Assembly: GCF_018919395.1 (NCBI RefSeq)
Contig: NZ_JAHLME010000003.1
Location: forward strand, 806,001 to 870,000
Source: Geomonas azotofigens
GTDB taxonomy: Bacteria; Desulfobacterota; Desulfuromonadia; Geobacterales; Geobacteraceae
Reading direction: 5' to 3'
DNA: 64,000 nt
The stretch's first letter is position 1. Every line of letters begins with the position of its first letter. The translations under genes and the position numbers were made by a program. The notes under the pieces are model-generated. The model was not told where the DNA came from and ran no database searches. It saw only the letters and a list, made by a program, of their open reading frames with translations. Positions 1 to 16,743 of the stretch are shown here, piece after piece.

Positions 1-2
1 AT

Positions 3-431: not shown

Positions 432-1036
432 CCCTGCAGTGCTCCATAACCGGCTTTACAACTCTGTGCCTCGCAGTTGCCCTCCTGGCCGGCTGCAGCA
501 GTTCGCCGAGGGTGTCATTTTATACCCTGAACGTCGCCGCGACGGACGTGACAGCGGCCCCGCCCTTTAACTCGGTGGACATCGGTCCCATCACCCTTCC
601 GGATCTGCTGGATCGGCCCCAGCTCGTCGTGCGTACCTCTGCCACCAGGGTGGAGATCCTGGAGACCCACCGCTGGGCCGAGTCTCCTAAGAGTGAGATC
701 CCGCGCATCATAGCGGCGGACCTGGGCGTTTTGCTCAAGCCGGTACGTGTGTCGTTCTACCCGCAGAACGCGGGCCTGGAGGCTGACTATCGGGTTCTGC
801 TCGACATCCAGCGCTTCGAGATGGCCAATGGGGAAGGGGTCGGCCTGGAGGTCCTCTGGTCCGTCCGCAGAAGCGACGGCGGAGTTGCGAAGACGGGCCG
901 CACGGTGGTCGACGAGCGGGTCAGCGCTGCCGGTTATGACGCACTGGTGGCTGCGCAGAGTCGGGCGCTGGCTGCCGTCAGCCGCGATCTGGCCCAGGCG
1001 TTATGCGAAGCGGCGCGGACCGCGCGGTCGCGATGA
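428..1036 (+). CDS. pqiC: PqiC-type ABC transport auxiliary lipoprotein
   Basis: 202-residue lipoprotein. The N-terminus is a hydrophobic signal ending in a lipobox LLAGC with the lipidated Cys at residue 23, followed by a Ser-rich linker and the typical start of this family (FYTLN near residues 37-41). PqiC proteins anchor in the outer membrane and form the ring that receives the PqiB tunnel. The start ATG overlaps the pqiB-like stop, so the two are translationally coupled. The gene is followed, 12 bp after its stop, by a convergent aaeA-like gene. Length and order match the family; a gene of the aae set rather than pqi is unlikely. Confidence 0.88.
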   Translation: MTLQCSITGFTTLCLAVALLAGCSSSPRVSFYTLNVAATDVTAAPPFNSVDIGPITLPDLLDRPQLVVRTSATRVEILETHRWAESPKSEIPRIIAADLGVLLKPVRVSFYPQNAGLEADYRVLLDIQRFEMANGEGVGLEVLWSVRRSDGGVAKTGRTVVDERVSAAGYDALVAAQSRALAAVSRDLAQALCEAARTARSR

Positions 1037-1047
1037 GCCGGACCTGG

Positions 1048-1941: not shown

Positions 1942-1984
1942 GCAAAGCCTTCCTTCTGGATAAGGTGTTGTATCGATGCGGCGC

Positions 1985-2185
1985 TTAGCGGAGCACCAGC
2001 AGGCCGCACGCGCTGAACATGCAGACGAAGCAACTCAGCCTGAAGAGCGGCGGATGCCAGACATGCCGGTATACGCCACACCACGCCATGACTCTGTCCA
2101 AAACCACATGGACCACGACGCTGGCCAGAAAAACCGGCAGCAGATTCGGGACCAGTGCGTCTAATATCGCTATTTCACGTGGCAT
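1985..2185 (-). CDS. aaeX: AaeX-like DUF1656 small membrane protein
   Basis: 66 residues with two hydrophobic helices and the family block GVYRHVWHPPLF, the counterpart of GIYDFVWHPALF in E. coli AaeX. The start at 2185 is chosen because AGGAGAAACGTC precedes it; a longer in-frame extension to 2251 lies inside aaeB and has no ribosome site. The start overlaps the end of aaeB by 11 bp. DUF1656 proteins always accompany FUSC/AaeB pumps, but their role is unknown. It sits between aaeB and aaeA here, whereas E. coli has the order aaeX-aaeA-aaeB. Confidence 0.88.
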   Translation of the reverse strand: MPREIAILDALVPNLLPVFLASVVVHVVLDRVMAWCGVYRHVWHPPLFRLSCFVCMFSACGLLVLR

Positions 2186-4331
2186 ATGACGTTTCTCCTG
2201 GGATAATTCCCCGCGGCCGGGAGGTCGTGGCCGCAAGGATGGATTCCTCATCGAGCAGCGAGGAACGGATCAGGTGCAGTGAGGTCAGCATCCGGCGCAT
2301 GGCATCCACAGTCTCTTCGCCGACTCCTTCCCCGGCTGATGCTGAAAGGATCGCGTCGATGGTTTCCTCGACAGTGACAAGGGCGGCGTTGTGGTTGTGC
2401 TGGTTCGGCCGCCCGAAAAAGCGCGCGATCTGCCGCGGCGTGTTGATGGCGCCGGCGGATACTCGCTGCGGCAGGAGAACGGATGCCGCGTCCTGGCGCA
2501 GGTGAATAACGGCCCGTCCGATCTCCAGTGCCACGAAGGTCCAGCCGACAATCTCCCGGTCATGGACATCCTGCAGGTTCGGCTTGGCCGCGACCCTCTG
2601 CAAAAGGTCCCGGGTGCCGCTCTCGTACCTGGAGCCGAGGTGCGGGAGCGTGCACGAACAGGCCATCTCCACCTGCCCGCGCAGCATGCGGGCGGTCCGT
2701 CGTTTCATCCATCCGCCTGTCACCGGGGCAAATGTCGCGAATATAAGGGCCGCCGCTGCTACGCCGAGAATGAGCGCGGTGCCGAAGTTTATGGATATGA
2801 TCGGATCATAAAGCATCCTGTTGGCTGGAGAGACCATGAAGCAGAACATGGTGCTGTAGCCCAGCCCGACCATGGCCAGTTTCGGATTCAGGGCCAGGTA
2901 CGACCCCACCAGCAGGAAAGGAGCCATGCCCATGACGAGGAAACCGATGCCGTTCAGGGAGGTTAGGATGAAAAACTTGCACGCCAATGCCGCCCCGAAA
3001 CCTATCAAGGTGCCGACAAGTGCGGTTTTTATGGCAAGTGTGGGGTCCGGCGCTGGAGCGAATAAGGCTGTGCCGATAGCCGCCATCATTACCGCACTGG
3101 CGCCGTATGGCCATGCCGAAGCGATCCAGAACGCCGACACCAATAGGATTGCGGTTGCGGTACGCACTCCGGTTACAAGCGCCACCAAAAGATCGGTGCG
3201 GGAAGCGAAAGAGACCTCATTGAGCTTCTCGGGACCCGCTTTCTCCATCAGAGAGGCATACGTCCTCATGTAGTGGTGGATCTCATGGACGAAGCGTCTG
3301 ACGAGGTCGAGGGCGGTCTCGATGTCTAGTCGCGCCTCGTGACCTGCGTGATCGAGGCACTCACGCAGGATCGCCGACTCCCGCTCCGGAAGATCCACGC
3401 GAAACTCGGCGAGCCGGCGCGCGGTCAGGCGCGCGCACTCCGCACCGCTGGCCGGCTCGCATTCCGGCGCAAGCGCCTCGGCAAGCAATGCGCCGAGCGA
3501 CGCCAAGGCAGGGGCCGCCGGGGCATCGGGGTCCGTCAACCGGCTGAGGATTTGACACAGGGAGTGGAACGTGGTGGACATCTCCATGAAATCCATGTTC
3601 AGCCGGCGCAGCCGCAGGTCGCGTGAGCGGATATCCGAGGCCTCCATGAACAGGGAGCTCCGCAGCGACTCCAGAGCCACGACGTTGCTCGCCACGTGCA
3701 GATGCATCCGGTCGATTTCCCGGGGCGTCATGCTTTTCGACAGAAGACCTGTGACGAATCCCATGAACCGGGCGTATCGCTCCTCCATGGTCTTGATGAT
3801 GCCGTCGCCGAGGCTGCGCGGAAAAACCACCTCGCTGACGACGCCGGCGCAGATGATGCCGACTACCACCTCTGTCGCGCGGTTCACCGCATAGTTGAAG
3901 AAACCGGTCGGTTGCATGACCAGGGGGAGGCCGATCATGGCGGCGGTATATCCGGCCAGGGTGAAGCCGTAGGACTTGAAGTTGCGGTAAACGGCCGCTC
4001 CTGCCGCGCACAGCCCGACCCACAGCGCCAGTCCGACCAGAAAAAGCACGCGCTCCTGGGCAAAGAGGCCCAGAAGCGCGAGGCTCGCCAGGGTGCCCGC
4101 CAGGGTGCCGCACACGCGGTAGAGGCTCTTGGTCAACACCATGCCGGTCTGGGGATGCATGACGATGTAGACCGTGACCATGGCGGTGACGGGCTGACCC
4201 AGCTCCAGGCGCATGGAAACGGCCAAAGCCAGCAAAACGGCGACGGTGGTCTTGAAGGCGAAGATCCATCTCGGCCCCTCCGCTTTGCTCCAGGCAACGA
4301 TCTCCCGCCGCAAGCCGTCGAGGAAATTCAT
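2175..4331 (-). CDS. aaeB: FUSC-family aromatic acid efflux transporter (AaeB-like)
   Basis: 718 residues with the two-repeat architecture of the FUSC/AaeB family: a hydrophobic N-terminal block (about residues 20-170, including VYIVMHPQTGMVLTKSLYR), a cytoplasmic helical domain (about 180-370), a second membrane block (about 385-540, with ILLVSAFWIASAWPYGA), then a C-terminal soluble tail. AaeB proteins export hydroxylated aromatic carboxylates and related compounds at the inner membrane, working with AaeA. Somewhat longer than E. coli AaeB (655 residues). The ATG overlaps the stop of the upstream outer membrane factor by 4 bp, so the genes are coupled. A ribosome site GGGAGCAGACAA precedes the start. 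Confidence 0.9.
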   Translation of the reverse strand: MNFLDGLRREIVAWSKAEGPRWIFAFKTTVAVLLALAVSMRLELGQPVTAMVTVYIVMHPQTGMVLTKSLYRVCGTLAGTLASLALLGLFAQERVLFLVGLALWVGLCAAGAAVYRNFKSYGFTLAGYTAAMIGLPLVMQPTGFFNYAVNRATEVVVGIICAGVVSEVVFPRSLGDGIIKTMEERYARFMGFVTGLLSKSMTPREIDRMHLHVASNVVALESLRSSLFMEASDIRSRDLRLRRLNMDFMEMSTTFHSLCQILSRLTDPDAPAAPALASLGALLAEALAPECEPASGAECARLTARRLAEFRVDLPERESAILRECLDHAGHEARLDIETALDLVRRFVHEIHHYMRTYASLMEKAGPEKLNEVSFASRTDLLVALVTGVRTATAILLVSAFWIASAWPYGASAVMMAAIGTALFAPAPDPTLAIKTALVGTLIGFGAALACKFFILTSLNGIGFLVMGMAPFLLVGSYLALNPKLAMVGLGYSTMFCFMVSPANRMLYDPIISINFGTALILGVAAAALIFATFAPVTGGWMKRRTARMLRGQVEMACSCTLPHLGSRYESGTRDLLQRVAAKPNLQDVHDREIVGWTFVALEIGRAVIHLRQDAASVLLPQRVSAGAINTPRQIARFFGRPNQHNHNAALVTVEETIDAILSASAGEGVGEETVDAMRRMLTSLHLIRSSLLDEESILAATTSRPRGIIPGETSYAT

Positions 4332-5800
4332 TTGTCTGCTCCCGGGGTTCCCGGTGGGGCATTCACGGGGACTCCCCCGCCGATCGCCCGCATCAGTGCG
4401 GCGTAGGCATCAAGAAAGTGCGCCTCGACCTGCGCTTTGCGCTGGGATTCCACGAGGGTCTGGCTCTGGGCGTTCAGCACCGTCAGGTAATCGCTCAGTC
4501 CCGCCTTGAAGCCGGCGAGGGCGATGTCGTAGGCGCGGCCGGCCAAGGAATACGATAGATACGTCTCGGTTCGCTGTTTTTCCAGTGATCGCAGGGTGAC
4601 GACCTCGTTGGCGACTTCCTCCAGGGCATGGATCAGGGTGTTGTTGTAGGCATCCACCGCCAGGTCGTATTGCGCGGTCGAGACACGCAGCTGCTCCCGC
4701 AACCGTCCCCCTTCGAAGATCGGGAGCGAAATAGCAGGGGTGAAACCCTTTATCACGGATTGGGATGACAGGAACTTGTCGAAGCCGAGGGATTGCCACC
4801 CCGCAAAAGCCGTGAGGTTTATGTTGGGATAAAAGGATGCTTTGGCGACGTTGATCCCCTTGCCGGAAGCTTCCACGCGCCAACGCTGGGCCACCACATC
4901 CGGCCTTCGCCCAAGGAGGTCCGCCGGGATGGAAGACGGCAACCCGATCGGCAGCGCGAAAGACATGGTCGGCCGGCGAATCCCCTCGCCGTACCCGGGC
5001 CCCTTGCCGGCGAGGGCGCTCAACCGGTTGCGCAGAATCTCGATCGACTCGGAGATCCTCTCGATGTCAGCCCGTGCGGCAGGCACCACCGTTTCGGCCT
5101 GGCGCAGCTCGATTTCCGTCCCGAGCCCGGCTGAACGGCGCTTCTCCAGGATGTCCCGGATCTGCTCGCGCTGATGAAGGGTCTCCCTGGCCACATCGAG
5201 CAGGCTGTACTGAAGCGACAACTGCACGTACAGGCGGATTACCGCTGTTTCAAGGGAAAGCCGGACTTCCTGCGCCTCGGCCGTGACCATCTGTATCTGG
5301 TCAAGGGCGGCGGCAAGGGCGCTGCGGTTCTTCCCCCACAGGTCGAGGTCGTAAAAAAGGGCCGTGGTCCACTCGTTGTACCACGCCCAGTTACCCGCGT
5401 AAGAGTGCGGAACGAAATATCGCTCAGAAAATTGCTCCCGCGTGAAGGACGCCTCCGTCTGTACCGTGGGCATCAGGCCCGATCTCGCGATTCCACCGAC
5501 GGACTTGGAGATGGTAATGCGGGACCGTGCCATGTGCATGCTGGGGTTACCCGCAGTCGCATCTGCGATCAACCGGTCGAGCTGCGGGTCAGCGTACACC
5601 TTCCACCACTGCTGCGACGGCCATGTTACTGAATGCTTCTTCTCGCCATCGATTGCGTTGCCGGCATCCAGACTGGCCGGCTCGACAACCCGTGCCTCCG
5701 GTTTGACCCCGACGGGAAGCCGGGCGCATCCCCCCAGCGCCATTGCGGCGACGATGGCGACGCAGCTGATATTCGAGATCCTGACCATTCCATTTTCCAT
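4328..5800 (-). CDS. NodT-family outer membrane efflux lipoprotein
   Basis: 490-residue TolC-like outer membrane factor of the NodT/OprM class. The signal peptide ends in a lipobox LGGC (Cys at residue 25), and the two OEP repeats are visible (about residues 65-260 and 270-470), including the family motif SIPADLLGRRPDVVAQRW and AKASFYPNINLTAFAG. It forms the outer membrane exit of the AaeA/AaeB pump encoded just downstream, with which it overlaps by 4 bp. E. coli AaeAB borrows the common TolC; here a dedicated channel is in the operon. An AAAGGATG ribosome site lies upstream of the chosen ATG; a second Met at residue 5 is a possible start. Confidence 0.9.
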   Translation of the reverse strand: MENGMVRISNISCVAIVAAMALGGCARLPVGVKPEARVVEPASLDAGNAIDGEKKHSVTWPSQQWWKVYADPQLDRLIADATAGNPSMHMARSRITISKSVGGIARSGLMPTVQTEASFTREQFSERYFVPHSYAGNWAWYNEWTTALFYDLDLWGKNRSALAAALDQIQMVTAEAQEVRLSLETAVIRLYVQLSLQYSLLDVARETLHQREQIRDILEKRRSAGLGTEIELRQAETVVPAARADIERISESIEILRNRLSALAGKGPGYGEGIRRPTMSFALPIGLPSSIPADLLGRRPDVVAQRWRVEASGKGINVAKASFYPNINLTAFAGWQSLGFDKFLSSQSVIKGFTPAISLPIFEGGRLREQLRVSTAQYDLAVDAYNNTLIHALEEVANEVVTLRSLEKQRTETYLSYSLAGRAYDIALAGFKAGLSDYLTVLNAQSQTLVESQRKAQVEAHFLDAYAALMRAIGGGVPVNAPPGTPGADK

Positions 5801-5951
5801 GTACTGACATCCTTTCTACTTCAAACGTGTCCCCGCTCCATGCGCTGTTCACCGTTTCTTACAGAAGGCGATCAGGGCTACGCAGAGCCAGACGACCATG
5901 GCGAAGAAAACGATGAAGCCCGTATCTTCCTGGGGCGAATGGAGAGTTTCG

Positions 5952-6596
5952 TCAGAATGTGAGAGCCGCTTCCGCGACTCTCCCTAGTTCTTTCCTGATC
6001 AAGGCCGCATTCTCGTCCGAGGCTGGACCGACGCCATAGATAAGGATGCTGCTGAATTCGGCGACGCCCAGAAATTTCATGGTCTGCCTGATGCTGGAAA
6101 CGCAGTGCAACTCCTTCTTCCTGTAAACGAATCCCTCGGTCGAATGGATCATGAGGCATTTTCTTTCCTGGTCTTTCAATAGACCTTCGGGGCCGCTGGA
6201 AGTATTTCGGTAGGTCGTTCCGGCGACCAGTACGGTGTCGAGATATTCCAACATCTGCGGAGGGAATCCAGGTTTCCACATCGGCGTAACGAACACGTAT
6301 TTGTCGGCAGCGGCGAACTGCATGGCGAGAGTAGAAATGCGGACCATTTTTTGCTGCTCAGCCTTGGTCAAGGTCGCGAAATGGTGCCCACGAGCGGTTT
6401 TATCCCATGCGCTGAGCACATCGAGGTCGGCTGGCTGAAGAGGGTCGCGGTAGAGGTCAAGCATATGAATTTCGTCGCGCGGGTTCGCTTTCTGGTACGC
6501 GTCCAGAAATGCCAGACCAGCCGTGAGGCAGCAGGATTGTTCCTGCTGTCTCAGGTCGCAGGTGATGTACAGTAGTATCGACATAAGGATCAACAT
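5952..6596 (-). CDS. azoR: FMN-dependent NADH-azoreductase-like flavoprotein
   Basis: 214 residues with the flavodoxin-like fold of AzoR: an N-terminal beta strand and phosphate-binding region (SILLYITCDLRQQEQS), MLDLYRDPLQPADLD near 46-60, and the flavin-contact segment YVFVTPMWKPGFPPQMLEYLD (about 100-120; AzoR has P-MYNF-P here). Members reduce azo dyes and quinones with NAD(P)H. A ggag site precedes the chosen ATG; Met5 is an alternative start. It is the first gene of the minus-strand efflux set, 151 bp ahead of the outer membrane factor, and lies behind a good sigma-54 promoter. This suggests co-induction of aromatic/quinone reduction and export. Substrate unknown. Confidence 0.85.
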   Translation of the reverse strand: MLILMSILLYITCDLRQQEQSCCLTAGLAFLDAYQKANPRDEIHMLDLYRDPLQPADLDVLSAWDKTARGHHFATLTKAEQQKMVRISTLAMQFAAADKYVFVTPMWKPGFPPQMLEYLDTVLVAGTTYRNTSSGPEGLLKDQERKCLMIHSTEGFVYRKKELHCVSSIRQTMKFLGVAEFSSILIYGVGPASDENAALIRKELGRVAEAALTF

Positions 6597-6648
6597 TGGC
6601 AGGACTCCAAAAGGAAGCCTGCGTTTCCGCCTTGCTTTACCTTTATGT

Positions 6649-6665
6649 AGCCATTACTGTGCCAA
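6649..6665 (-). promoter_or_regulatory. Sigma-54 (-24/-12) promoter of the azoR-aae operon
   Basis: Read on the minus strand this is TTGGCACAGTAATGGCT: TGGCAC at -24, GC at -12, with the exact 12-bp GG-to-GC register of RpoN promoters. It ends about 50 bp upstream of the azoR start codon and faces it. The divergent gene encodes a sigma-54 activator, which fits. Confidence 0.75.
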
Positions 6666-6719
6666 CTTTATAGCCTCGCAAAATCGCTGTGTTATGCCTG
6701 CGGTTCTCGTGACTGTTAC

Positions 6720-6777
6720 AATATTTGGTGAAAAAGTTAAAATATTTGGTATATTTCGGGTGCGATTACCAAATATT
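6720..6777. promoter_or_regulatory. Upstream activator sites: three AATATTTGGT boxes
   Basis: AATATTTGGT occurs at 6720-6729 and 6741-6750 (exactly 21 bp apart, two helical turns), and its inverse ACCAAATATT at 6768-6777. All three copies are perfect. They lie 55-112 bp upstream of the azoR sigma-54 promoter, the normal place for enhancer binding, and just ahead of the divergent activator gene, so they are probably its binding sites and may also mediate autoregulation. Confidence 0.75.
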
Positions 6778-6820
6778 TGAGTTTTGCGAGGGGTGGGTGG
6801 GGATTTACGGAGATATCGGC

Positions 6821-8362
6821 GTGATTGACAGGAACACCTTCTTCAAGGAGGTTACGATTAAAATTTGCAGCAGCCTGAAGATAAAAACCGCTTTGAAGGG
6901 CGCGTTCGACTATTTGAGGCAGAACATCCCCCTCGACAGTCTCGCATTGACCATTCGCGATACCAATCTTGCCGCCTTGAGGAGAGTCGCCCAAGTGGCG
7001 ACCAACCGGGTGGAGCTTGCCGATGAAGTCTTCGTGCTTCCGGAGGAACTCTGGTCCAAAGTGCAGGCATGGGAAGTTCGAGCTCCAACTATCATGAGTG
7101 CCGACCATGACGAAGTAATTCGTGCTATAGCACCCTACATTAAGCTCGAAGGAAACTCGGCCATCCTCATACCGCTGTGGGTCGAGAACGAATGGCTCGG
7201 AGGGCTGATACTCCGCGTCCGCGGAGAGGGAGTCTATGATTCATCACATGTCGAGCTCTTAGCTACTGTGACAGAGCCATTCTCTATCGCACTGGCCAAT
7301 GCATTGGCGCACGAAAGGCTTCTTAGGTACCGAGACACTCTGCTAGACGACAACAGCTTTCTGAACAGGGAGCTTTTATCCCACACCTCAGACGAGATCA
7401 TTGGCGGCAATACCGGGCTTCGAAACGTGATGGAGATGGTGCGACAAGTGGCACCGCTGAATAATTCCGTACTGCTGTTGGGGGAAACTGGGACGGGCAA
7501 GGAAGTGATCGCCAATGTCATTCATTTTGGTTCTCCACGCAGAGATGGACCTTTCATCAAAGTGAACTGTGGGGCGATTCCGGAAAGTCTCATCGACAGC
7601 GAACTGTTCGGTCACGAAAAGGGGGCTTTTACCGGAGCTGTTGCTGAGAAGCGCGGACGATTCGAGCGGGCTGGCGGCGGGACTATATTTCTGGACGAGA
7701 TTGGGGAGTTGCCCCTCCAGGCCCAGGTTCGTCTGCTGCGCGTGCTCCAGAATCGTGAGATCGAGCGAGTCGGCGGCAGTAGACCGATTCCTTTGGATAT
7801 CAGGGTAATCGCGGCCAGTCATCGCAATCTGGAAACCATGGTGTCCGAAAATCGGTTTCGCGAAGACCTCTGGTTCCGGTTGAACGTGTTCCCTGTCATC
7901 ATTCCACCTCTACGGCAGCGAAAGGAAGACATCCCAGCTCTCACCCGATATTTTGTTATGCGGAAAAGCAAGGAGTTGGGAATTTCCGGTTCGCCCGCCA
8001 TTGTGCCAGGCGCCCTGCAACGTCTTACGGACTATTCTTGGCCGGGGAACGTCCGTGAACTAGAGAATATTGTGGAACGGGAGATGATAAGGTACCGGGG
8101 CGAACAGCTGTTGTTCGACTCGCTGCTTCCAGCAGAAGACGGCAGGTGGAAAAAGGAACCTCCAGAGGACAGCCGCCGGCAAGCACCACTGAAACTTGAC
8201 GCTATTTTATTCCAACACATCAGCAAGGTGCTGAAAATGACCAACGGTAAAATCCATGGACGTGACGGTGCAGCGGCGTTGCTTGGTGTGGAGCCGAATA
8301 CCTTGAGGGCTCGTATGGACAAACTCGGCATCGATTACCGTCGTAAACGGAATGCGAGTTAG
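6821..8362 (+). CDS. GAF-domain sigma-54-dependent transcriptional activator
   Basis: About 513 residues: an N-terminal GAF-type sensor (about 10-175), an AAA+ domain with Walker A GETGTGKE (about 220-227), the sigma-54 contact loop GAFTGA (about 268-273), Walker B IFLDEIGE, and a C-terminal Fis-type helix-turn-helix (about 465-505). It has no receiver domain, so it belongs to the NorR/FhlA/AcoR type that senses a small molecule. The start is set at GTG 6821 with GGAG at 6809-6812. The frame opens further to 6725, but that would place the 10-bp activator boxes inside the gene and has no ribosome site. It most likely controls the divergent azoR-efflux operon; the ligand is probably an aromatic or electrophilic compound (inference). 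Confidence 0.9.
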   Translation: MIDRNTFFKEVTIKICSSLKIKTALKGAFDYLRQNIPLDSLALTIRDTNLAALRRVAQVATNRVELADEVFVLPEELWSKVQAWEVRAPTIMSADHDEVIRAIAPYIKLEGNSAILIPLWVENEWLGGLILRVRGEGVYDSSHVELLATVTEPFSIALANALAHERLLRYRDTLLDDNSFLNRELLSHTSDEIIGGNTGLRNVMEMVRQVAPLNNSVLLLGETGTGKEVIANVIHFGSPRRDGPFIKVNCGAIPESLIDSELFGHEKGAFTGAVAEKRGRFERAGGGTIFLDEIGELPLQAQVRLLRVLQNREIERVGGSRPIPLDIRVIAASHRNLETMVSENRFREDLWFRLNVFPVIIPPLRQRKEDIPALTRYFVMRKSKELGISGSPAIVPGALQRLTDYSWPGNVRELENIVEREMIRYRGEQLLFDSLLPAEDGRWKKEPPEDSRRQAPLKLDAILFQHISKVLKMTNGKIHGRDGAAALLGVEPNTLRARMDKLGIDYRRKRNAS

Positions 8363-8761
8363 GGCAGGGGCAAAGGCTTATTCCTGCAGTTGTCGATGAT
8401 GCTGCTGTCCACCATGGGGGGAGAGGGAGCTTGGTACCGGCGACCTTGGGTCCGACGCTTACGCCCCCTCGACGTCGTAAAGGAGTCGTAAGCGTGCTGT
8501 AGCAGTATCGATCCCGCTACCCTCATTATTGGAAAACGTTCCGGAATTGTGTAACAGATGGTGGTCCACGGGGCAGTGCGGCGGGGCGTGAAGTTTAGGG
8601 TGTTCAATGCGGCCATTTACAACATGTCACGCATGGCTAAAAAAGATAGAAGCCTTGGAGGCATCTATTCCCCGTTCAGGTTCTTTTGCTCGCCAGACTG
8701 CTCCGGTGTACATTGAAAAGATGCGAAGCTTTTGTAGGGAGCAACGAAGGGGCTCCACCAA
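8363..8761. other. Non-coding gap at the left edge of the accessory island
   Basis: No convincing gene. The only structure seen is a perfect 9-bp inverted repeat, ACGCTTACG at 8455-8463 and CGTAAGCGT at 8487-8495, separated by 23 bp and without a T-run. Frames through here have no ribosome sites or recognisable domains. This is where composition changes from core-like to AT-richer. Confidence 0.5.
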
Positions 8762-9109
8762 TTATGGATTGTGTAAATCTTTGAAATTTGTGAGACAACT
8801 GCAGACGAACGCACGTATTTCGGGGCTTGGTAGGCTCCTAAATCCATTGATTACTTTATGCTCTTCTTCAGAGAGAGTAGCTAGGTAGAATCCGCTATCC
8901 TCAAAAAAAGCAGCGACAGGAACAGATAGGGCTATGGCGATAGCTTGCAATTTGTCGGTGTTTAGGCGGCTGGCGCCAGTTTCGTAGTTTTGTATCTGCT
9001 GGAATGTCACGTCAATTTTTCCTGCCAATTGTAGCTGTGTTAGCCCTTTACACTTACGAAACTCCTTGAGCTTCTCGCCAATTTCTTCGCTGGTTAAGAT
9101 CCTTCTCAT
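8762..9109 (-). CDS. Xre-family helix-turn-helix regulator
   Basis: 115 residues. Residues about 10-65 form a classical Cro/CI helix-turn-helix (GLTQLQLAGKIDVTFQQIQNYE, recognition helix about FQQIQNYE), followed by SEEEHKVINGFRSLPSPEIR, a C-terminal segment seen in small Xre regulators of integrated elements. The start is the ATG at 9109 after GAGAGGTGCCC; a GTG two codons earlier is also in frame. It is the first identifiable gene of the accessory island and is probably its repressor. Base composition is lower in GC than the flanking genes. The function as an element repressor is inferred from position. Confidence 0.85.
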   Translation of the reverse strand: MRRILTSEEIGEKLKEFRKCKGLTQLQLAGKIDVTFQQIQNYETGASRLNTDKLQAIAIALSVPVAAFFEDSGFYLATLSEEEHKVINGFRSLPSPEIRAFVCSCLTNFKDLHNP

Positions 9110-9313
9110 GGGCACCTCTCTAGCCTCTACATCCCAGTATCCTAGGAACGTCGGTGTTGCTCAACTGAAATTTGATAATTAGCTTGACAAAACAAATGCT
9201 GATTGTATTTTTAACGGAAAGGGTTCCGGACTTCGACCACAATCCGCATTTGGCAGGAACTGGATATGTCGGGATAGGCGTTGCCCCCGGCTCCTAGCTC
9301 GTGAGGCGTGAAG

Positions 9314-9841
9314 ATGCCATACTCCGACAAGGAAAAGCAGCGGGCGTACCAGCGTGAGTTCATGCGGAAAAAGAAGCAACACAACCCACACTGGCATGCT
9401 GAGCTATCAAGGCGAAGAAAGCGAGAGCGTCAAGTAGCCAGAGACATTATTGCCCAAATTAAAAGGAGTTTTGGCTGCTTATTATGTAATGAAAATAATC
9501 CCGACAACCTACATTTTCATCATGTTTTACCAAACACCAAAACTGCATCTGTATCTGATTTGCTGTCCGATCGCACTAAACTGATATCCGTACTGAAAGA
9601 GATTGATAAATGTGTTTGTGTGTGTACGGTATGCCACAAACATTTTCAAAGAACGGTGGACTACGTCATAATGAACATGAAAAAGGAACGATGGTACTCA
9701 GACTGGGGGCTAAATGACGCCTTAGAATGGGCTACGGTACATCCTCAGCGCCGGCTTAACAAAAATAATTTCATTGAGATAATTAACGCTGTTGCTAAGA
9801 ATTGTCAATTTCAGGATCTAAAGCAGTTTTATGATCAGTAA
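9314..9841 (+). CDS. HNH-type zinc nuclease-like protein
   Basis: About 175 residues. A strongly basic N-terminus (residues 6-52, SDKEKQRAYQREFMRKKK and RRRKRERQ) precedes a zinc-bound HNH-like module: C55-x2-C58, H69-H70 in the segment LHFHHVLP, and C104-x2-C107-H108. This is the beta-beta-alpha metal fold arrangement of small HNH endonucleases. The start is ATG 9314 after GTGAGG. The gene is notably AT-richer than core genes and sits between the Xre regulator and an unknown gene. It may be a nicking or homing-type nuclease or a DNA-binding protein of the island; catalysis is not proved by the sequence. Confidence 0.65.
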   Translation: MPYSDKEKQRAYQREFMRKKKQHNPHWHAELSRRRKRERQVARDIIAQIKRSFGCLLCNENNPDNLHFHHVLPNTKTASVSDLLSDRTKLISVLKEIDKCVCVCTVCHKHFQRTVDYVIMNMKKERWYSDWGLNDALEWATVHPQRRLNKNNFIEIINAVAKNCQFQDLKQFYDQ

Positions 9842-9880
9842 TAGCTGACCATACTAGTGCGACTGCAGAGGACTTCTACT

Positions 9881-10171
9881 ATGGACGATCGAGATGAAAG
9901 GATGTTCAATAAACGCTTAAAAGTAGTAGCCAGTAAAGGTATCGAAACCCATTTTGGCCGCTTGGGGATAGTCACCCTTCATCAAGTCGCTGAAATGATG
10001 ATTAATTTGGCTTTGCCAATAACGAATTTCACCAGTAGTCCTGAGAAATACTGCGAACTCTGGCACGAGGAGATAGGCAGCGATATTAAAGGCCTTAAAT
10101 CGATGCTGGAGATTTTAGAGCGCACCTACGCCAAAGTTGATGTAGCGTTACAAAGTGACAAATTGAGGTGA
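9881..10171 (+). CDS. Hypothetical protein
   Basis: 96 residues starting at an ATG preceded by AGAGGA (9870-9875). I do not recognise the family. It appears alpha-helical, with a central VAEMMINLALPITNF segment and an acidic C-terminal helix, and no membrane span or zinc motif. It follows the HNH protein by 39 bp on the same strand and shares its low GC, so it may be its partner. The coding call rests on the ribosome site, a clean start and stop, and amino-acid-like composition. Confidence 0.6.
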   Translation: MDDRDERMFNKRLKVVASKGIETHFGRLGIVTLHQVAEMMINLALPITNFTSSPEKYCELWHEEIGSDIKGLKSMLEILERTYAKVDVALQSDKLR

Positions 10172-10300
10172 TCTTCTCTGATGTGACACCCAAAACCGCC
10201 CTCCCCACTACTCTCCTGCAATGTAGCTCAATAAATTTATCCACACAAGTCAAATCCCCTTCGCGTTTGCTCTATGAGAATCTCAGGTAGGTCGAAGGTA

Positions 10301-10432
10301 CAAGTGCCAGCACCAAATGCCCAGTACCAGTACCAACACCTAGTACCGGTACCAACACCCAGTACCAGTACCAACACCCAGTACCAGTACCAACACCCAG
10401 TACCAGTACCAGTACCAGTACCTAATAGATCC
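10301..10432. repeat. Tandem repeat array of CCAGTA/CCAACAC units
   Basis: Four near-identical 18-19 bp units, each CCAGTACCAGTACCAACA with small changes, run from 10321, then the array ends in a pure CAGTAC hexamer run to about 10432; a degenerate unit starts near 10301. The hexamer is the sub-unit of the larger repeat, which points to slippage. There are no spacers, so it is not a CRISPR. Confidence 0.9.
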
Positions 10433-10800
10433 CAGGAACTCGTGGCCTGAGCCTGCCGAATAAGGCTCTTCACAGCCTTGCAGTTCACTCCATAAGAGAT
10501 GGGCCTGTTGGCGTCTGGTCCGCCTGGCACAACAGCAAGGACGCCTCTTCAGGAGATGTGGCACAGTCCCTCCCGGGGCTGCGTCTCCGGCAGCAATTTT
10601 GGGGGAGGCTCGTGGAGCCGTGGACCTGGTATGGGCCGACAGGTTCCGGTCAGACAAATGACGGTGGATCTGGTTGAACCGGGGGCTTTTTCAACTCGTG
10701 GACAAGTTAGTGAAGTTGCCCGGCCATGCTGGTATAGCCCATTTACCCACGGCAGTGAGGGACATAATGTCCTGCCTTAAAAAATTGCCGTAAAAGTAAT

Positions 10801-10872
10801 TTTATGCCGCATAAATAAAATTTATGCAATGGATGTGGGTCAGTATTTAATGGCATAAATAAAATTGTTATG
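10801..10872. promoter_or_regulatory. Clustered TTTATGC/GCATAAA boxes upstream of the kfrA-like gene
   Basis: TTTATGC at 10801-10807, GCATAAA at 10809-10815, TTTATGC at 10821-10827 and GCATAAA at 10853-10859. Neighbouring boxes form perfect palindromes, for example GCATAAATAAAATTTATGC at 10809-10827, and the 10853 copy repeats GCATAAATAAAATT. They look like an operator cluster. A TTGACA (10960-10965) with a weak TACCGT 17 bp later could be the promoter. Confidence 0.5.
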
Positions 10873-11106
10873 ACAAACATATTGTATAAAGATTACCAGC
10901 ATAATTTTTTGACATAAAAATATTGAAAATGTTCTTTCAAAAAAAATAAATAAGTGTGCTTGACAAAACTAAAAGCCTTCGATACCGTTTTTAAGAAAGT
11001 GATATAGTTTCAGAATACGGTTCGTACTGTTTAACCTAGATGCTGATACAGCCTTGAGAGATGGTAATAATGCTTAGGAAGGACTATCGACATTCGGGGG
11101 ATGGCA

Positions 11107-12114
11107 ATGGACGCAGAAATAGAAACAACAGTAGTTGACGCGAGAAAAGTCGGGCCAGAATTGGTTTGGGAGGCGACACAAGCTGCTCTCGATGACGCAA
11201 GGACGAAGGCACCCGAAGCTACACTCGAGAACTTGCTCCATGGCATCAGTCCGCACGTTATCTACAACTACTGGATGCCCCGCAAATTTAACAAGAAAGG
11301 CTGTTATCAACAGGTTGCTGGGCTTTTCAAGCAGGTAAGAGAGCAAATATTGAGTGCTGAGCAGCTGGAGCAGACAGGACGAATTCCCATCAAGACGTTA
11401 TCACTTGAACTCACCACTGAGCTTAACCGCGTCACCCAGCAGCTTACGGAGGGGGTAAACCGATCTGTAGCCTCTCTTGAGATCACCATCGCCGCAAATA
11501 ATGAGACCATACGAGACGAAGTACTTCGATATGCCGACGCAAAACAGCAAGCAGAAGATGCAAAGCATCAGCGTATGATAAGGATCATTGAAAAAGAGAG
11601 CATGGATCATTTGGCGGCGGCTGCCGTTTTCGAAAGAGAGCGGGACGTAGCAATCGGCAAGGTTGAGGAACTTACAAATAGAGTAGAGGAACTCACTGCA
11701 CAGATGGCTGCAGCAGACGAGAAATGTCATTCCTTTGAGCGTGTGGTGAATAGCTTAAGCGACCAGCTTCGGGACGGGTGCCAAAGAGCAGACTCCGCTT
11801 TTACCAAAATGGACGAGGCAAGCCTGGTTATAGCAGATCTTCGTGAGCAGCTCACGATAACCAGCCGTAGGGTCTTTGAGGCAGAGGCTGAAACAGGTGT
11901 GGCCAGAAATGAGGCTGCACGTTTAACCGGATTGCTCACAGAAATAAAGGACCAATTGGCGGCTGCACACGGTCAGGTCGACATTCTAACCCAGCAACTT
12001 CACATACAGTCAGCACGGGCTGACAGGGAGCTTGCTAAAGGCGGGCGCCAACACTGCCATTCCTACCCTTCGAGGGCAGTTTACGTCAGCCGCCGCAAAA
12101 GCAGATCAGATTGA
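11107..12114 (+). CDS. KfrA-like DNA-binding coiled-coil protein
   Basis: 335 residues. The N-terminal ~100 residues fit the KfrA N-domain pattern (VWEATQAALDDARTKAPEATLENLLHG then a Y-x2-W helix); residues about 100-315 are almost entirely charged heptad helix (repeated E-x2-A/L, Q and R), a long coiled coil. KfrA proteins are plasmid-borne autoregulators with an alpha-helical tail. GGGGG at 11096-11100 fits the ATG at 11107; an ATG at 11101 is too close to it. The last ~28 residues (after LAKGG) look unlike a coil and may reflect a late frameshift. Plasmid-type regulators on an integrated island suggest plasmid ancestry. Confidence 0.6.
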   Translation: MDAEIETTVVDARKVGPELVWEATQAALDDARTKAPEATLENLLHGISPHVIYNYWMPRKFNKKGCYQQVAGLFKQVREQILSAEQLEQTGRIPIKTLSLELTTELNRVTQQLTEGVNRSVASLEITIAANNETIRDEVLRYADAKQQAEDAKHQRMIRIIEKESMDHLAAAAVFERERDVAIGKVEELTNRVEELTAQMAAADEKCHSFERVVNSLSDQLRDGCQRADSAFTKMDEASLVIADLREQLTITSRRVFEAEAETGVARNEAARLTGLLTEIKDQLAAAHGQVDILTQQLHIQSARADRELAKGGRQHCHSYPSRAVYVSRRKSRSD

Positions 12115-12199
12115 AGATACGAACAATAGTCCTAATGATTTGCCAGCGTTTTGCGGAATTACAACCACGCACGGGTCGCTTCCCGTAAAGGAGGGGCAA

Positions 12200-12397
12200 A
12201 TGTCAGAGCGGTTATTAAGGTTAAAAAAAGTTCTGTCTATGGTGCCTGTAAGCCGGACTACTTGGTACGCGGGGATCAAATCCCGCAAGTTTCCGCCCGG
12301 CCGGCTGCTTACCGAGAGGACAAGAGTTTGGGACGAGTCGTCCATCATTGCCGTTGTCAACGGAACTTGGACCCCTGAGGGAGACTCAACTTCTTAG
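12200..12397 (+). CDS. AlpA-family regulator/excisionase-like protein
   Basis: 65 residues matching the AlpA (CP4-57 regulator) pattern: LLRLKKVLSMVPVSRTTWYAGI, a winged helix-turn-helix with SRTTWY in the recognition helix, then KFPPGR and a W-x-ESSI ending. A strong ribosome site, AAGGAGGGG (12188-12196), lies 3 bases from the ATG. The frame stays open upstream to 12032, but that part lacks a start signal and overlaps the kfrA-like gene. AlpA proteins activate or assist excision of P4-type elements by acting on the integrase. Here it lies directly upstream of two integrase genes, which supports that role. Confidence 0.85.
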   Translation: MSERLLRLKKVLSMVPVSRTTWYAGIKSRKFPPGRLLTERTRVWDESSIIAVVNGTWTPEGDSTS

Positions 12398-12553
12398 TGA
12401 GACGCTTAAAGGCGACCAAAACATGGCCATTGCAAAACCCACTGATCTCGCAGTCGAAAAAGGAAATAAAACACTCGACGATCCACATCAACCAAGCAGA
12501 GCAGTCTCGGAGTATAGCCAGAAATCTGGCTTGCGACCACAACGGAGAATTCT

Positions 12554-13186
12554 ATGCCCAAGCGTATTCCGCAACCACCGTCCAAACATAAACGTTTCAA
12601 GGCCCTCTCGGATCCCCAGGAGATCGCCTCTCTGCTCAGCGCCATAGATGGCTACAAGGGGGCGTTTGTTGTGAAGTGCGCCATGAAGCTGGGCACTCTT
12701 CTGATGGTCAGGCCAAATGAACTCCGCCATGCCGAATGGGCAGAAATCGACTTTGTAGAGGAAAATTGGATCATTCCAGCCCACAAGATGAAGGCGAGAG
12801 GGCCACACATTGTCCCGCTGTCGCATCAGGCCATCGCGATCCTGCGGGAACTCCGCGCCATTACCGGACATAGCAGGTATCTATTTGCCAGTCCAAAGTC
12901 AGCGGATCGCTGTATCGGGGCAGGCGCAATTAATTTCGCCTTGAATCGCATGGGGATGGAAATTACAGCTTACGGTCTCCGGCACATGGCGGCAGGAATC
13001 CTTTACGAAGTATTGAGCTTCAGTGCTGAGGTAATAAGGTGCCAGCTCGGGTATGCGACTGGCCGCCAGATGAAATACTTAGGGGGCTGGCCGAAGTATT
13101 TTGACGAACGGCGCGAAATGATGCAGAAACTAGGAGACTATTTGGACGTTGTGAAGGAGACGGCAAATAGGCCTATGGAGATTTGA
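12554..13186 (+). pseudogene. Truncated tyrosine integrase (catalytic domain only, key residues lost)
   Basis: 210 residues. The first seven (MPKRIPQ) and about 25 bp upstream are nearly identical to the start of the intact integrase at 13331, but the next ~190 residues of the arm-binding and core-binding domains are missing; the frame jumps to the catalytic domain (from about LSDPQEIASLLSAIDGYKG). The catalytic Arg (RPNELR) and hairpin Lys are kept, but the HxxR His is Tyr (YGLRHMA), the second His of the EHQLAHA block is lost (RCQLGYA), and the nucleophile Tyr region is altered (MKYLGGW instead of AYNRTTF). It is therefore unlikely to recombine DNA. It could be decayed, or a regulatory remnant that still binds. 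Confidence 0.75.
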
Positions 13187-13209
13187 GTCTCTGGTTGTGG
13201 GGCAGGCGG

Positions 13210-13293
13210 TACCATCAAAAAGGAGAAGCTGTCATACCACCAAGGGCTAACAGATACCATCAAAACCTGAAGCCGTCGGAAATATACCACCAA
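13210..13293. repeat. Four TACCAYCAA direct repeats ahead of the integrase
   Basis: TACCATCAAAA at 13210-13220 and 13255-13265 alternate with TACCACCAA at 13235-13243 and 13285-13293. The shared core is TACCAYCAA, all on the same strand, within 84 bp between the truncated and intact integrase genes. The arrangement resembles arm-type integrase or excisionase sites next to att. Confidence 0.6.
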
Positions 13294-13330
13294 CGGCAGA
13301 AAAAGTGACTGCGACCACAGGGAGAATCCC

Positions 13331-14614
13331 ATGCCTAAGCGCATTCCGCAACTGTCGGTTCTCAAGATAGACAACGCCAAGGCCAGAGATAAAGCGTACA
13401 AATTGGCAGACGGATACGGCCTGTACCTTTTGGTCACGCCCTCTGGTGGTAAATTATGGCAGATGCAGTATCGGTTCGATGGGAAGCAAAAGGTTTTGTC
13501 CTTCAGGGCTTATCCTGCAGTTTCCTTGAAGGCTGCGCGGGAGAAGAGGGATGAAGCCAAGAAGCTGCTTGCTGTTGGCCTAGATCCCGGTCAGGTAAAG
13601 AAGGAGAAGAAGAAGAAGAAACTGGAAGCTTATACCAACACCTTTGAGGCAGTGGCACGAGAATGGTTTGAACGCTTCAAATCGAAGTGGACACCGACTC
13701 ACGGTGCTCGGAAACTTGCAGGTCTTGAAAAAGATGTTTTCCCTTCGCTAGGCCAGCGCCCTATCGGTGAAATCAAACCTCCTGAATTGCTGAAGGTCTT
13801 GTGCCAAATCGAAACGAGGTCTTTGGAGATAATGCACAAGGCAAAGTGCACCTGTGGGCAAGTCTTCCGCTATGCCGTTTCTACAGGGCGCGCCGAGCGG
13901 AACCCGGTGCCCGAACTGCGTGACGCGCTTCCTCCTGTCAAGAATGGACATTTCGCGGCCCCTACCGATCCAAAGAAGGTCGCACCTCTTATGCGGACGA
14001 TATACGGTTATCAAGGTTCTTTTGTCGTCAAATGCGCCCTAAAGCTTGCCCCCCTTTTCTTTATCAGGCCGGGAGAACTGCGGAAGGCGGAATGGACAGA
14101 GATAGACTTTGTCGAGGAACAGTGGAACGTCCCAGCCGAAAAGATGAAGATGAAGGTGGCACATACAGTTCCCTTGTCGCGTCAGGCCATTGCGATCCTT
14201 CATGAGCTTCACACTTTGACAGGGCATGGCAAGTATGTTTTTGCAGGTAGGCGTTCATCGCTTAACTGCATGAGTGATAATGCTGTTAATGCAGCACTAC
14301 GAAGCATGGGCTACACGAAGGACGATATTGTCGGTCATGGGTTCCGTGCCATGGCGCGGACGATCCTAGCTGAAGTCTTGTTATTTAGGGTTGACATCAT
14401 TGAACACCAGCTTGCACATGCAGTGAAAGACCCCAACGGGGTCGCGTACAACCGGACGACGTTTCTCCCGCAGCGGCGCCATATGATGCAGGTATGGGCG
14501 GACTATTTAGACGCATTAAAAAAATGCACAACGCAAGACGAGATCAGCAGTGTAAATAAAAAGTATTCAACTATTGCCTTAAACGCGTATAGTACTATGA
14601 TGATGGAGGCTTAG
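13331..14614 (+). CDS. P4-type tyrosine integrase
   Basis: 427 residues, full length for the P4/DUF4102 integrase family. Order: an arm-type DNA-binding domain (about 1-90, with LADGYGLYLLVTPSGGKLWQ), a core-binding domain (about 95-200), and a catalytic domain with Arg in RPGELR (about 242), Lys in KMKMK, HGFR (about 336-339), His in EHQLAH (about 358) and the nucleophile Tyr in AYNRT (about 376). All catalytic residues are present. It integrates or excises the island by recombination at att sites, often in tRNA genes, although no tRNA is visible at the right side here. TACCAYCAA repeats lie upstream. Confidence 0.93.
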   Translation: MPKRIPQLSVLKIDNAKARDKAYKLADGYGLYLLVTPSGGKLWQMQYRFDGKQKVLSFRAYPAVSLKAAREKRDEAKKLLAVGLDPGQVKKEKKKKKLEAYTNTFEAVAREWFERFKSKWTPTHGARKLAGLEKDVFPSLGQRPIGEIKPPELLKVLCQIETRSLEIMHKAKCTCGQVFRYAVSTGRAERNPVPELRDALPPVKNGHFAAPTDPKKVAPLMRTIYGYQGSFVVKCALKLAPLFFIRPGELRKAEWTEIDFVEEQWNVPAEKMKMKVAHTVPLSRQAIAILHELHTLTGHGKYVFAGRRSSLNCMSDNAVNAALRSMGYTKDDIVGHGFRAMARTILAEVLLFRVDIIEHQLAHAVKDPNGVAYNRTTFLPQRRHMMQVWADYLDALKKCTTQDEISSVNKKYSTIALNAYSTMMMEA

Positions 14615-15421
14615 TGAGCGAAGAGGTAGAACGCTTTAATGGTATTATTGGTGGAGTTTTGACGACGTGAGAGCTTTTATTACGTATTACCTAGTAGTTG
14701 CATGCATGCCCGGTTCCCGCTTTCGGGTTCGAAAAACTGAAAGTGGGTGAAACTCTATAAGGTATTATTTGCGGTATCTGGCCGGAGTGGCTGGTGAAAG
14801 GGTTATGTTTACAGCAGCTTGGCTGGATTTCAGTGGCCGGCCTCCGGTACCATAACAAGATTCAAAAGGCTTAGCTCTTAAAGGGCTAAGCCTTTTGTTT
14901 TTTCCATGCCGCGAGCACGATCATTGCTTCGCTTGGTGATGGCGCTCTGTGGGCTCCTGGTCTCCAGTGCTGCCATCTTGTAGCGCCGGACTGGCCCCCC
15001 GGCCAAGAACTCCTCCACTTGCCACTTCTCCGCCTGGCTGTCGATCTGCTTCCGCTGGTGGAGAAGCCCAAGACTGCGGCATACCATTGGACAGCCTGCT
15101 CTGCGAGACGGATCCTCGGTTTCTCCCCTTGTTTTCAGCTCTTCACAGGTTATTGCAGGAGGCCTATATCTCAACGAGGAATATTACATTGATCGAAGCT
15201 AACCTGCGTGATAATCTCGCGGAGCGACTGTTCGACTTGTCCCATAGGACGCCTTCGTGGTCAGGAACATGAAGACGCGGACCATCGATGAAGAGTTGCT
15301 GGACGAGGATTGAACGAGTTTCTGGAGTCGAGGACATGACACCTGGCTGGACACATCTCCGTGAAGCTCAGTCGGTCAGCCAATAGCCGGTGGGCGCAGT
15401 CATGAAGAGAGGGATAACCCA
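14615..15421. other. Non-coding right edge of the island
   Basis: 807 bp with no recognisable gene. It contains an imperfect hairpin at 14716-14747 (CCCGCTTTC pairing with GAAAGTGGG), a strong bidirectional terminator at 14866-14898, and fragments of open frame on both strands between 14900 and 15310 (for example a minus-strand frame with GGPVRRYKMAALETR) that have no ribosome site and look like degraded coding DNA. One att site of the island probably lies here, but no target repeat could be defined. Confidence 0.5.
14866..14898. terminator. Bidirectional rho-independent terminator
   Basis: AAAAGGCTTAGC, a short loop, then the complementary GCTAAGCCTTTT followed by more T residues. A-run and T-run on opposite sides would let it work on both strands. 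Confidence 0.85.
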
Positions 15422-16018
15422 ATGAGCACAGAGGTCCCCGCTGTTACAAAAACTGCCGAGGGCGCGACGGTAGTTATCACTCATAGGTTGCGCGAAAACA
15501 AGCAGACAGAATACGAAAGGTGGCTTGAGGAGATTGCGCCTCTTTGCAAGGCTTCGCCAGGTTATTTGGACTGGCATATCGTTCGACCAATACCAGGCTT
15601 GACGGAAACCTATACCGTCATAATCCGATTCGATACCGAGGTGCACTTGCGGGAGTGGATGGAATCACCGACTCGCGCCCGTCTTATTAAACAGGTTCGG
15701 CCTCTCTTTGTGACCGACGATGATTTTTTTATCAGTAGCGGGCTGGATTTCTGGTTTACACCAATGGGGGCGAAAGCCAAGATACCGGTGCGCTGGAAAC
15801 AGTTTCTGGTTACATGGTCAGCTATCTATCCTCTAGCGTTGGGTATGCCGCTGGTCGTTTATCCAGTTATGCATTACCTTCACGTTCCTGATAACCGGTT
15901 ATTCGCAACATTGGCAGTAACTGGACTGGTTGTTTTTCTTATGGTGTACGTGGTAATGCCTCGCTACACAAGACTAGTGCAACGATGGCTATTTTCTGCC
16001 AAGGGAGAAGAGTCATGA
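15422..16018 (+). CDS. ABM-domain membrane protein
   Basis: 198 residues. Residues about 15-110 form an antibiotic-biosynthesis-monooxygenase (ABM) ferredoxin-like domain (VVITHRLRENKQTEYERWL, GYLDWHIVRP, and FDTEVHLREWMESPTR), followed by two C-terminal membrane helices (about 128-150 and 160-182). This soluble-domain-plus-two-helix layout is that of the COG3224 group; its reaction is not established. A GAGAGGGATAACCC ribosome site precedes the ATG. It is the first gene of a same-strand cluster that ends with a multiheme cytochrome, and it overlaps the next gene by 4 bp. Confidence 0.85.
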   Translation: MSTEVPAVTKTAEGATVVITHRLRENKQTEYERWLEEIAPLCKASPGYLDWHIVRPIPGLTETYTVIIRFDTEVHLREWMESPTRARLIKQVRPLFVTDDDFFISSGLDFWFTPMGAKAKIPVRWKQFLVTWSAIYPLALGMPLVVYPVMHYLHVPDNRLFATLAVTGLVVFLMVYVVMPRYTRLVQRWLFSAKGEES

Positions 16019-16743
16019 CGTCATCAGAGGCAAGCACGGCACAGACGGTTTGCCCTAAGTGTTCCGCACCGCGACCGCTTGGTAGTGACAGCTGCCCGAG
16101 GTGCGGGGTCATCTTCGCCAAGGTGCGGCAGCATTCCAACCAAACGTCAGCGCAGCCTGAAGTCGCCCGGTCCGTGCCCGCCGCTGTCGCAGGCGGGCCT
16201 GCCGCCTCTGGCGTTGTCGTGGCGCGATATGCATTCCTCGCTCTCATCGCGTTCTATGGTTTTCGCATACTGATACATCCCATTGCCTCCAATTACGTCG
16301 GCGAAACGTTCCTGCACCTCGTCAATCTCCCCTTTCATGAGGCGGGGCATATCCTTTTTTCACCTTTCGGTCGCTTTCTCCAGGTCGCCGGCGGCACGAT
16401 CATGCAGCTTCTGGTTCCGGCGGTGGTGGCGATCTCCTTTTACAGGCGCTGCGACCGCTACGCCGCAGCGGTGGGCGTGTGGTGGCTCGGAGAGAGCATG
16501 GCGGATGTCGCTCCCTATGCGGACGACGCCCGTGCCGGAGAGCTCCCGCTCCTTGGGGGCGTGACGGGGAGCGAGGTGGAGGATTATCACGACTGGGAGG
16601 TGATGCTGGGGAAGCTTGGAATGCTTACCTGGGACCATTCTATCGGCAGATTCTTCTTCGTCGCCGGGGGTGCCGTGATGGCAGCAGCCATCATCTGGGG
16701 AGTCATCGTATCTTCTCGTCACACAGAAACGGAGTCCGGCTAA
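16015..16743 (+). CDS. Zinc-ribbon membrane protein with HEAGH metallopeptidase-like motif
   Basis: 242 residues. A zinc ribbon at the N-terminus (C13-x2-C16 and C27-x2-C30), a flexible Ala/Pro linker, then several membrane helices (about 70-88, 125-150, 215-235). Between the first two lies HEAGH (108-112), a zinc-protease-type motif, in the context NLPFHEAGHILF, as in membrane site-2-like peptidases. The start is chosen at 16015 because it couples by ATGA to the upstream gene. A third metal ligand is not certain; WWLGESMADVAPYADD could supply acid residues. The function is unknown, and a non-peptidase metal site is possible. Confidence 0.75.
   Translation: MTSSEASTAQTVCPKCSAPRPLGSDSCPRCGVIFAKVRQHSNQTSAQPEVARSVPAAVAGGPAASGVVVARYAFLALIAFYGFRILIHPIASNYVGETFLHLVNLPFHEAGHILFSPFGRFLQVAGGTIMQLLVPAVVAISFYRRCDRYAAAVGVWWLGESMADVAPYADDARAGELPLLGGVTGSEVEDYHDWEVMLGKLGMLTWDHSIGRFFFVAGGAVMAAAIIWGVIVSSRHTETESG

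Follow-up and report, generated by a model that had tools for sequence, protein, structure and literature searches.

Non-catalytic relatives of integrases are known from several mobile elements, and GinC, Tfp and MrpR may serve by analogy as precedents for the dead integrases considered here. The GInts carry three integrase-family proteins and a small regulator (ginABCD), and the available part of their description states that all four genes are needed for excision and integration (PMC5385486). GinC is said, in the accessible text of two reports, to lack catalytic residues, the first arginine among them, and to be needed for excision (PMC5385486, PMC10214605). In strand-biased circularizing elements (SE), which are organized as intA-tfp-intB-srap, the accessible sections describe Tfp as lying between two integrases and lacking the catalytic RHRY motif, and no deletion mutant of its gene could be made (PMC10214605). 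MrpR (YopR), the master repressor of SPbeta, is presented in the available text as a DNA-binding regulator with a tyrosine-recombinase fold that lacks recombinase activity (PMC10516654). Finally, the available account of the IntS/attL region of the KplE1 (CPS-53) prophage places the int promoter across attL, where it is repressed by the integrase (PMC2951348).

In this study, we examined a window of 64,000 nucleotides (the whole stretch of DNA that was analysed) and the element whose right end it contains. The element carries an intact integrase (IntR1), a short dead copy beside it (IntS1) and a full-length dead paralogue at its other end (IntL1). The reading that we favor, at a probability of roughly one half, is that the short copy is the arm-less dead member of a three-paralogue recombination module residing on a tRNA-targeted island. 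Recombinase-in-trio (RIT) elements consist of three adjacent recombinase genes, whereas in the two islands described below, once integrated, ~140 or 40 kb separate the third paralogue from the other two. GInts have three contiguous integrase genes in one operon at one end, and were first described, in the part of the report available, in an ABC transporter gene with imperfect repeats of 10–11 nt (PMC5385486); the module described here is split over both ends of the island, with only two integrase genes adjacent, its target is a tRNA gene, and its integrases are arm-binding and P4/KplE1-like, two of them dead. Because integrases occur at both ends and the target is a tRNA gene, the element is neither a GInt nor an RIT. 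SE elements also differ, as the accessible sections describe one operon at one end, copy-out-like movement, and the catalytic motif in both IntA and IntB (PMC10214605). The KplE1 integrase is of the same type as IntR1, but in the available account one live integrase does both jobs and there is no dead paralogue (PMC2951348). MrpR differs in being a phage lysogeny repressor, and excision of its phage proceeds through a serine recombinase, according to the accessible text (PMC10516654).

The boundaries of the island were established from its attachment sites and from relatives. A 16-bp core at 14837–14852 (forward strand) matches the 3′ end of tRNA-Leu(caa) base for base, and within one mismatch the genome contains exactly two copies of it, one in the tRNA gene (C12:680397-680412) and one in the window (C12:820837-820852). 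No tRNA gene is found within the window, and none precedes IntR1. All five same-genus stretches chosen for the site (G028, G040, G045, G029 and G038) are without the island; in these relatives tRNA-Leu(caa) with the left flank of our genome is followed within 0.1–4 kb by the right-flank sequence of the window. A sixth same-genus stretch that was compared is a different integrase region and stands outside this count. The two core copies and the empty sites together indicate that a ~140.4-kb island has its right end in the window, which belongs to it up to 14852; the island thus has both a tRNA 3′-end repeat at its ends and an empty site in relatives. IntS1 and IntR1 stand at the attR end of this island in tRNA-Leu(caa). 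A terminator at 14863–14897 (forward strand) follows tRNA-Leu(caa) in G045, G029 and G038; it is native to the tRNA-Leu gene and has been displaced by the island. To the right of the island, conserved host genes resume with 15985–16743 (forward strand), whose homologue lies downstream of tRNA-Leu(caa) in G045. Between attR and this gene, at 14932–15283, are stretches that are probably worn remnants of host or island DNA; they are 75–78% identical to sites in G039 and G034 that lie some kb away from integrases.

Reading outward, the attR end is arranged as a coiled-coil gene, alpA, the dead IntS1, IntR1 with intact residues, and attR, with all genes on the forward strand. The first gene upstream of alpA (11101–12114) encodes a 337-residue protein with weak coiled-coil matches, none above the cut-off. 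The AlpA-type excisionase/regulator (12200–12397, 65 residues), whose start codon was picked from the ribosome site and a homologue, belongs to the AlpA family with 28.6 bits for PF05930 against a gathering score of 21, in a scan made on the open reading frame 12032–12394. Further from attR, simple repeats at ~10237–10657, upstream of the coiled-coil gene, give GTGTG, WYWYW and VLVLV runs in overlapping frames. Read from translations only, the cargo at 18–8362 includes an efflux-like cluster (HlyD-, FUSC- and NodT-like ORFs), an azoreductase-like ORF and a sigma-54-type regulator.

IntS1 (12554–13186, forward strand, 210 residues) lies upstream of IntR1 (13331–14614, forward strand, 427 residues) in the same orientation. 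IntR1 is an arm-binding P4/KplE1-type tyrosine integrase, with Arm-DNA-bind_3, Phage_int_M and Phage_integrase domains and the complete set of catalytic residues (R, K, H, R, H and Y), and the solved CPS-53 integrase domain 2kj8 matches its residues 102–202 (E 1e-19). IntS1 falls outside this class, since its arm and core-binding domains are gone and its sole domain match is to Phage_integrase (PF00589). In IntR1 numbering, it retains R246, K271 and R339, but His 336 and His 363 are both replaced by tyrosine, and no tyrosine is in register with Y373, the nearest being two residues away as counted along the sequence. A preliminary description of this DNA had stated that the short copy jumps straight to the catalytic domain, lacks the HxxR histidine, the second histidine and a well-placed tyrosine, and keeps an open frame of 210 codons behind a ribosome site. 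The domain scan, the alignment to IntR1, and the frame at 12554–13186 with its retained GGAG agree with this account throughout. Alignment of the two proteins, which the same description had proposed as a check, places them in one integrase family, with catalytic domains ~48% identical; descent of IntS1 from another integrase family is ruled out by the domain match and this comparison. The predicted fold of IntS1 has a mean pLDDT of 79, with values below 50 at residues 1–6, 171–178 (the tyrosine region) and 208–210. Its nearest solved folds are ordinary recombinases, which is uninformative on function.

The preliminary description spoke of a true integrase and one short copy, and this holds at attR; a third, dead paralogue is located at the opposite end of the island, beyond the reach of that description. 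IntL1 (C12:680590-681798, 403 residues) is full-length and free of stops, and begins 178 bp past the tRNA at attL, outside the window. Among 50 loci picked by likeness to the proteins of the window, seven with partial integrases were left out, and of the remaining 43 full-length relatives, 39 carry the integrase 146–303 bp downstream of a tRNA or tmRNA gene in the same orientation. By this distance, it is IntL1 that occupies the canonical integrase position. At the positions of R, K/R, H, R and H in live members, IntL1 carries E, S, N, W and L, while the tyrosine is kept. We looked for a consensus promoter before IntL1 and saw none. Adjoining IntL1 just inside attL is a kdp-like potassium-transport operon with a sensor and a regulator (L064 5936–13830; G000 C12 ~681.9–689.8 kb), an unusual island cargo whose ORFs were named from translations alone.

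The short-long integrase pair, for which the preliminary description had suggested a search in other elements, recurs in a second island at another tRNA in another genus of the same family (G055). This 42.4-kb island in tRNA-Thr(cgt) carries on one strand a coiled-coil ORF, AlpA, an arm-less IntS2 and an intact IntR2, followed by attR. Its attR, next to IntR2, is a 28-base stretch, 96% identical, that ends in the 3′ end of tRNA-Thr(cgt), and this direct repeat is the single feature by which the element is classed as a tRNA-targeted island. A shorter second copy of the tRNA-Thr 3′ end, ~0.7 kb beyond this attR (L062 3441–3426, reverse strand), is perhaps an older or tandem attachment site. IntL2 is full-length and lies 231 bp from tRNA-Thr. 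It has L at R246, E at H336 and E at H363, with R at 271, a replacement for lysine that also occurs in 27 of 107 catalytic domains, and it keeps R339 and the tyrosine. The catalytic set is thus incomplete in both IntL1 (E S N W L Y) and IntL2 (L R E R E Y), while in both the arm domain can be aligned and is kept. IntS2 has phenylalanine at both H336 and Y373. It possesses a core-binding domain, which is absent from IntS1, and the two IntS proteins thus differ in architecture; the IntS2 and IntR2 genes overlap rather than being separated by a gap as in the first island. The AlpA proteins of the two islands are 69% identical. In contrast, blastp finds no similarity between their coiled-coil proteins, and this gene therefore counts only as a positional likeness, homology not being shown. 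Beyond integrases and AlpA, a comparison of ~24 of the 140 kb of the first island (window 1–14852 and 9.6 kb at attL) with stretches of the second revealed no shared cargo except weak histidine-kinase-type matches at 25–28% identity.

The occurrence of the same dead, arm-less integrase layout in another genus suggests that IntS1 is an old part of the module and not a fresh duplicate. A tree restricted to the arm and core-binding domains places IntL1 and IntL2 in one clade (99/89). The catalytic-domain tree groups IntR1, IntR2 and IntL1 (95/83) and joins IntS1 and IntS2 more weakly (84/85), on long branches. With the other dead copies omitted, IntS2 falls within the IntR1/IntR2 group (68 and 87). 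A clade of the four attR-end integrases is not rejected (p 0.33). Losses at 41 near-invariant columns of the catalytic domain were compared in six combinations, for which P values are nominal. IntS1 has lost 11 and IntS2 12 of these, with seven in common against 3.2 expected (P 0.007), and IntL1 has lost 10 and IntL2 15, with seven in common against 3.7 expected (P 0.017), whereas the lowest P for losses shared across classes is 0.14. When the five catalytic columns are removed, the IntS pair still shares five losses against 2.2 expected (P 0.024), but the IntL value rises to P 0.08, and the IntL signal therefore leans on the active site. Identical replacements also occur within each class, W389L in both IntS proteins and E254K and G337R in both IntL proteins. 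Among 107 distinct catalytic domains, a set that predates IntL2, only five are deviant, and three of these come from the two islands. Single catalytic changes are seen in two integrases elsewhere (L016 4305–5633, His to Gln, and L035 4359–5582, Tyr to Cys). From these comparisons we conclude with moderate assurance that the likeness of the two modules is inherited rather than convergent, and it is quite probable that the three-integrase module is real and has been inherited as such.

Whether the dead copies are maintained is a separate question. In IntL, the arm-DNA-binding domain is better conserved than the catalytic one, whereas live integrases show the opposite. IntL1 and IntL2 are 66.7% identical in the arm domain and 41.5% in the catalytic domain, and none of the 2,278 pairs that can be formed from 68 live integrases reaches this difference of +0.25 (their mean is −0.12 and their maximum 0.18). 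All 11 near-invariant arm columns carry the live consensus residue in both IntL proteins. In a simulation of neutral decay, which was tuned to changes in near-invariant columns, took IntR1 as ancestor, ignores indels and is rough, the probability of a frame without stops is 0.14 for IntS1, 0.035 for IntS2, 0.11 for IntL1 and 0.0075 for IntL2. Neutral decay alone is thus compatible with the lack of stops in IntS1 and in IntL1; IntS1 by itself is indecisive, and the case rests on the whole set.

The value for IntS1 also agrees with the strongest competing explanation, which is possible although clearly less probable than the reading we favor, namely that IntS1 is a functionless, decaying remnant of an old integrase, with a frame left open by chance or by the recency of the loss. 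It fits such a relic that both DNA-binding domains of IntS1 are gone, that its branch is long (1.81), and that broken integrases are common, several relatives being split into overlapping frames or bearing stops. However, IntS1 has kept residues in order of column conservation (28/36, 28/45, 27/53 and 15/53, beginning with the most conserved grade), although part of this gradient predates the loss of activity. The losses common to IntS1 and IntS2, the GGAG retained before the gene and the maintenance of gene order across deep divergence also argue against simple decay. IntS1 keeps its frame open and bears some marks of constraint, and the regulatory role that the preliminary description proposed for the short copy is plausible, even though the stop-free frame of IntS1 alone does not decide the matter.

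The preliminary description attributed IntS1 to duplication, and the common family and the loss of domains and catalytic residues agree with this, but a recent, one-off tandem event does not fit the dead arm-less counterpart in the second island. As it had reported, the leader and the MPKRIPQ start are present twice, at 12519–12574 and, before and within IntR1, at 13297–13351 (both forward strand, each with codons 1–7, by repeat alignment). Chance is ruled out as the source of this repeat by its local alignment score of 31, the maximum in 5,000 single-base shuffles being 16. Identity is 25/35 in the non-coding part and 19/21 in codons 1–7; the non-coding leader alone is weaker, with a score of 14 that 4 of 5,000 shuffles attain. 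Among 220 sequences, the motif GCGACCACA-GGAGAAT is confined to the window and five loci that are repeats of this place. These shared ends would be expected if IntR1 had recently been duplicated in tandem with an internal deletion, yielding a competitor peculiar to this island, and an AU test does not reject IntS1 and IntR1 as a sister pair (p 0.22). Nevertheless, such an event is improbable. The catalytic domains are only 48% identical, compared with 66–71% for the eight nearest relatives of IntR1, and differ at 53% of third codon positions, near saturation. With the other dead copies omitted, IntS1 branches beside IntR1 and IntR2 and outside them, at low support (SH-aLRT 22). The leaders of IntS2 and IntR2 are not alike (score 10), so the second island is without the shared leader. 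Since this leader seems younger than the catalytic domains and is missing from the second island, the 5′ end of IntS1 was probably copied later from IntR1. The simplest account, on this evidence, would be an old dead paralogue whose 5′ end was replaced by the leader and first codons of IntR1 and whose core-binding domain was lost.

Tandem islands at tRNA genes are common, and a second tRNA-Thr 3′ fragment lies past attR of the second island, but it is equally doubtful that two unrelated elements are stacked in one tRNA, the older IntL having died and the likeness of the two genomes being coincidental or a frozen ancestral composite without common function, because the first genome has no third 16-bp core within one mismatch, IntL1 and IntL2 form one clade, and their arm domain is kept while the catalytic domain drifts.

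If IntS1 does belong to a three-paralogue module, the arrangement of the island offers a possible division of labor. In the excised circle, attP would fall between IntR and IntL, so that AlpA, IntS, IntR and IntL would lie side by side in one orientation, as a module that is split by integration. IntR would be the catalyst that does the cutting, with AlpA setting direction. Of an ordinary integrase, IntL would retain the half that binds arm sites and represses its own gene; by sitting on attL and on its own promoter, it would stabilize the island. Its position at attL, conserved arm domain and incomplete catalytic set are what one would expect of a protein that holds and represses attL, as in KplE1, and by this analogy IntL could well have that role. 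IntS, made together with AlpA and IntR, might pair with IntR via the catalytic-domain fold and so limit or shape the recombining tetramer, although the suggestion that IntS tunes IntR through such contacts is tentative. It is rather unlikely that the dead paralogues have gone further and become obligate specialized parts, with catalysis assigned to IntR, arm occupancy and repression to IntL, and tetramer control to IntS, all split by integration. The complementary residues of IntS (Arg-Lys-Arg without an in-register tyrosine) and IntL (tyrosine without the first arginine) are seen in both islands, but a composite active site assembled in trans is most improbable.

Candidate binding sites for these proteins are present. 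The gap before IntR1 contains four copies of TACCAYCAA (at 13210, 13235, 13255 and 13285, spanning 13210–13293, forward strand), and with a fifth at 50895 the window holds five against 0.29 expected, a number reached in none of 100 shuffles. Three copies precede IntL2, where 0.07 are expected; the single copy before IntL1 is within chance, as 18 of 200 shuffles also have one. None is found before IntS1 or IntS2, and only the first island has the repeats in the gap between IntS and IntR. Their place and repetition suggest that they are putative arm sites of the integrases.

If this division of labor is correct, then catalysis, site recognition and self-repression, normally jobs of one integrase, reside on separate paralogues, each of which could be removed alone. 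This would permit a direct test of how large islands are stabilized yet movable when needed. It would also mean that "broken" integrases beside live ones, which are easily taken for debris, can be machine parts, as has been reported for GinC of the GInts.

The known examples of the module are the two islands. In 141 genomes of the order, their AlpA proteins score 149 and 136 bits, well clear of the next match at 63, and in the class the module is found in 2 of 277 genomes, the next AlpA match again having 63 bits. With AlpA, a phylum sample of 395 yielded only the window's own genome, all others scoring at most 65 bits. Searches with IntL recovered the two islands in the 141 genomes (857 and 815 bits, next 519) and no further island in the phylum sample, which included the genome of the window and in which G055 was not among the matches listed. 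In open-licence PMC literature, none of the titles and abstract openings listed describes a tRNA island with a dead integrase paralogue at either end. Among the ~150 matches listed from the 141 genomes, there is no other short intact integrase copy, and the possibility that the short copy represents a stand-alone family was rejected on this basis. The intermediate-length copies whose sequences were examined are split into overlapping frames, bear a stop or reach a contig edge; a further one, of 349 residues, is listed in G084. Neither plasmids (702 matching records) nor phages (261) have a match at ≥60% identity, or any match to AlpA of the second island at E 1e-5, and the loci returned from viral contigs include no further module. 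One of these contigs carries two tandem integrase ORFs (L069 1–2346), of which the second matches residues 21–142 of IntR1 only.
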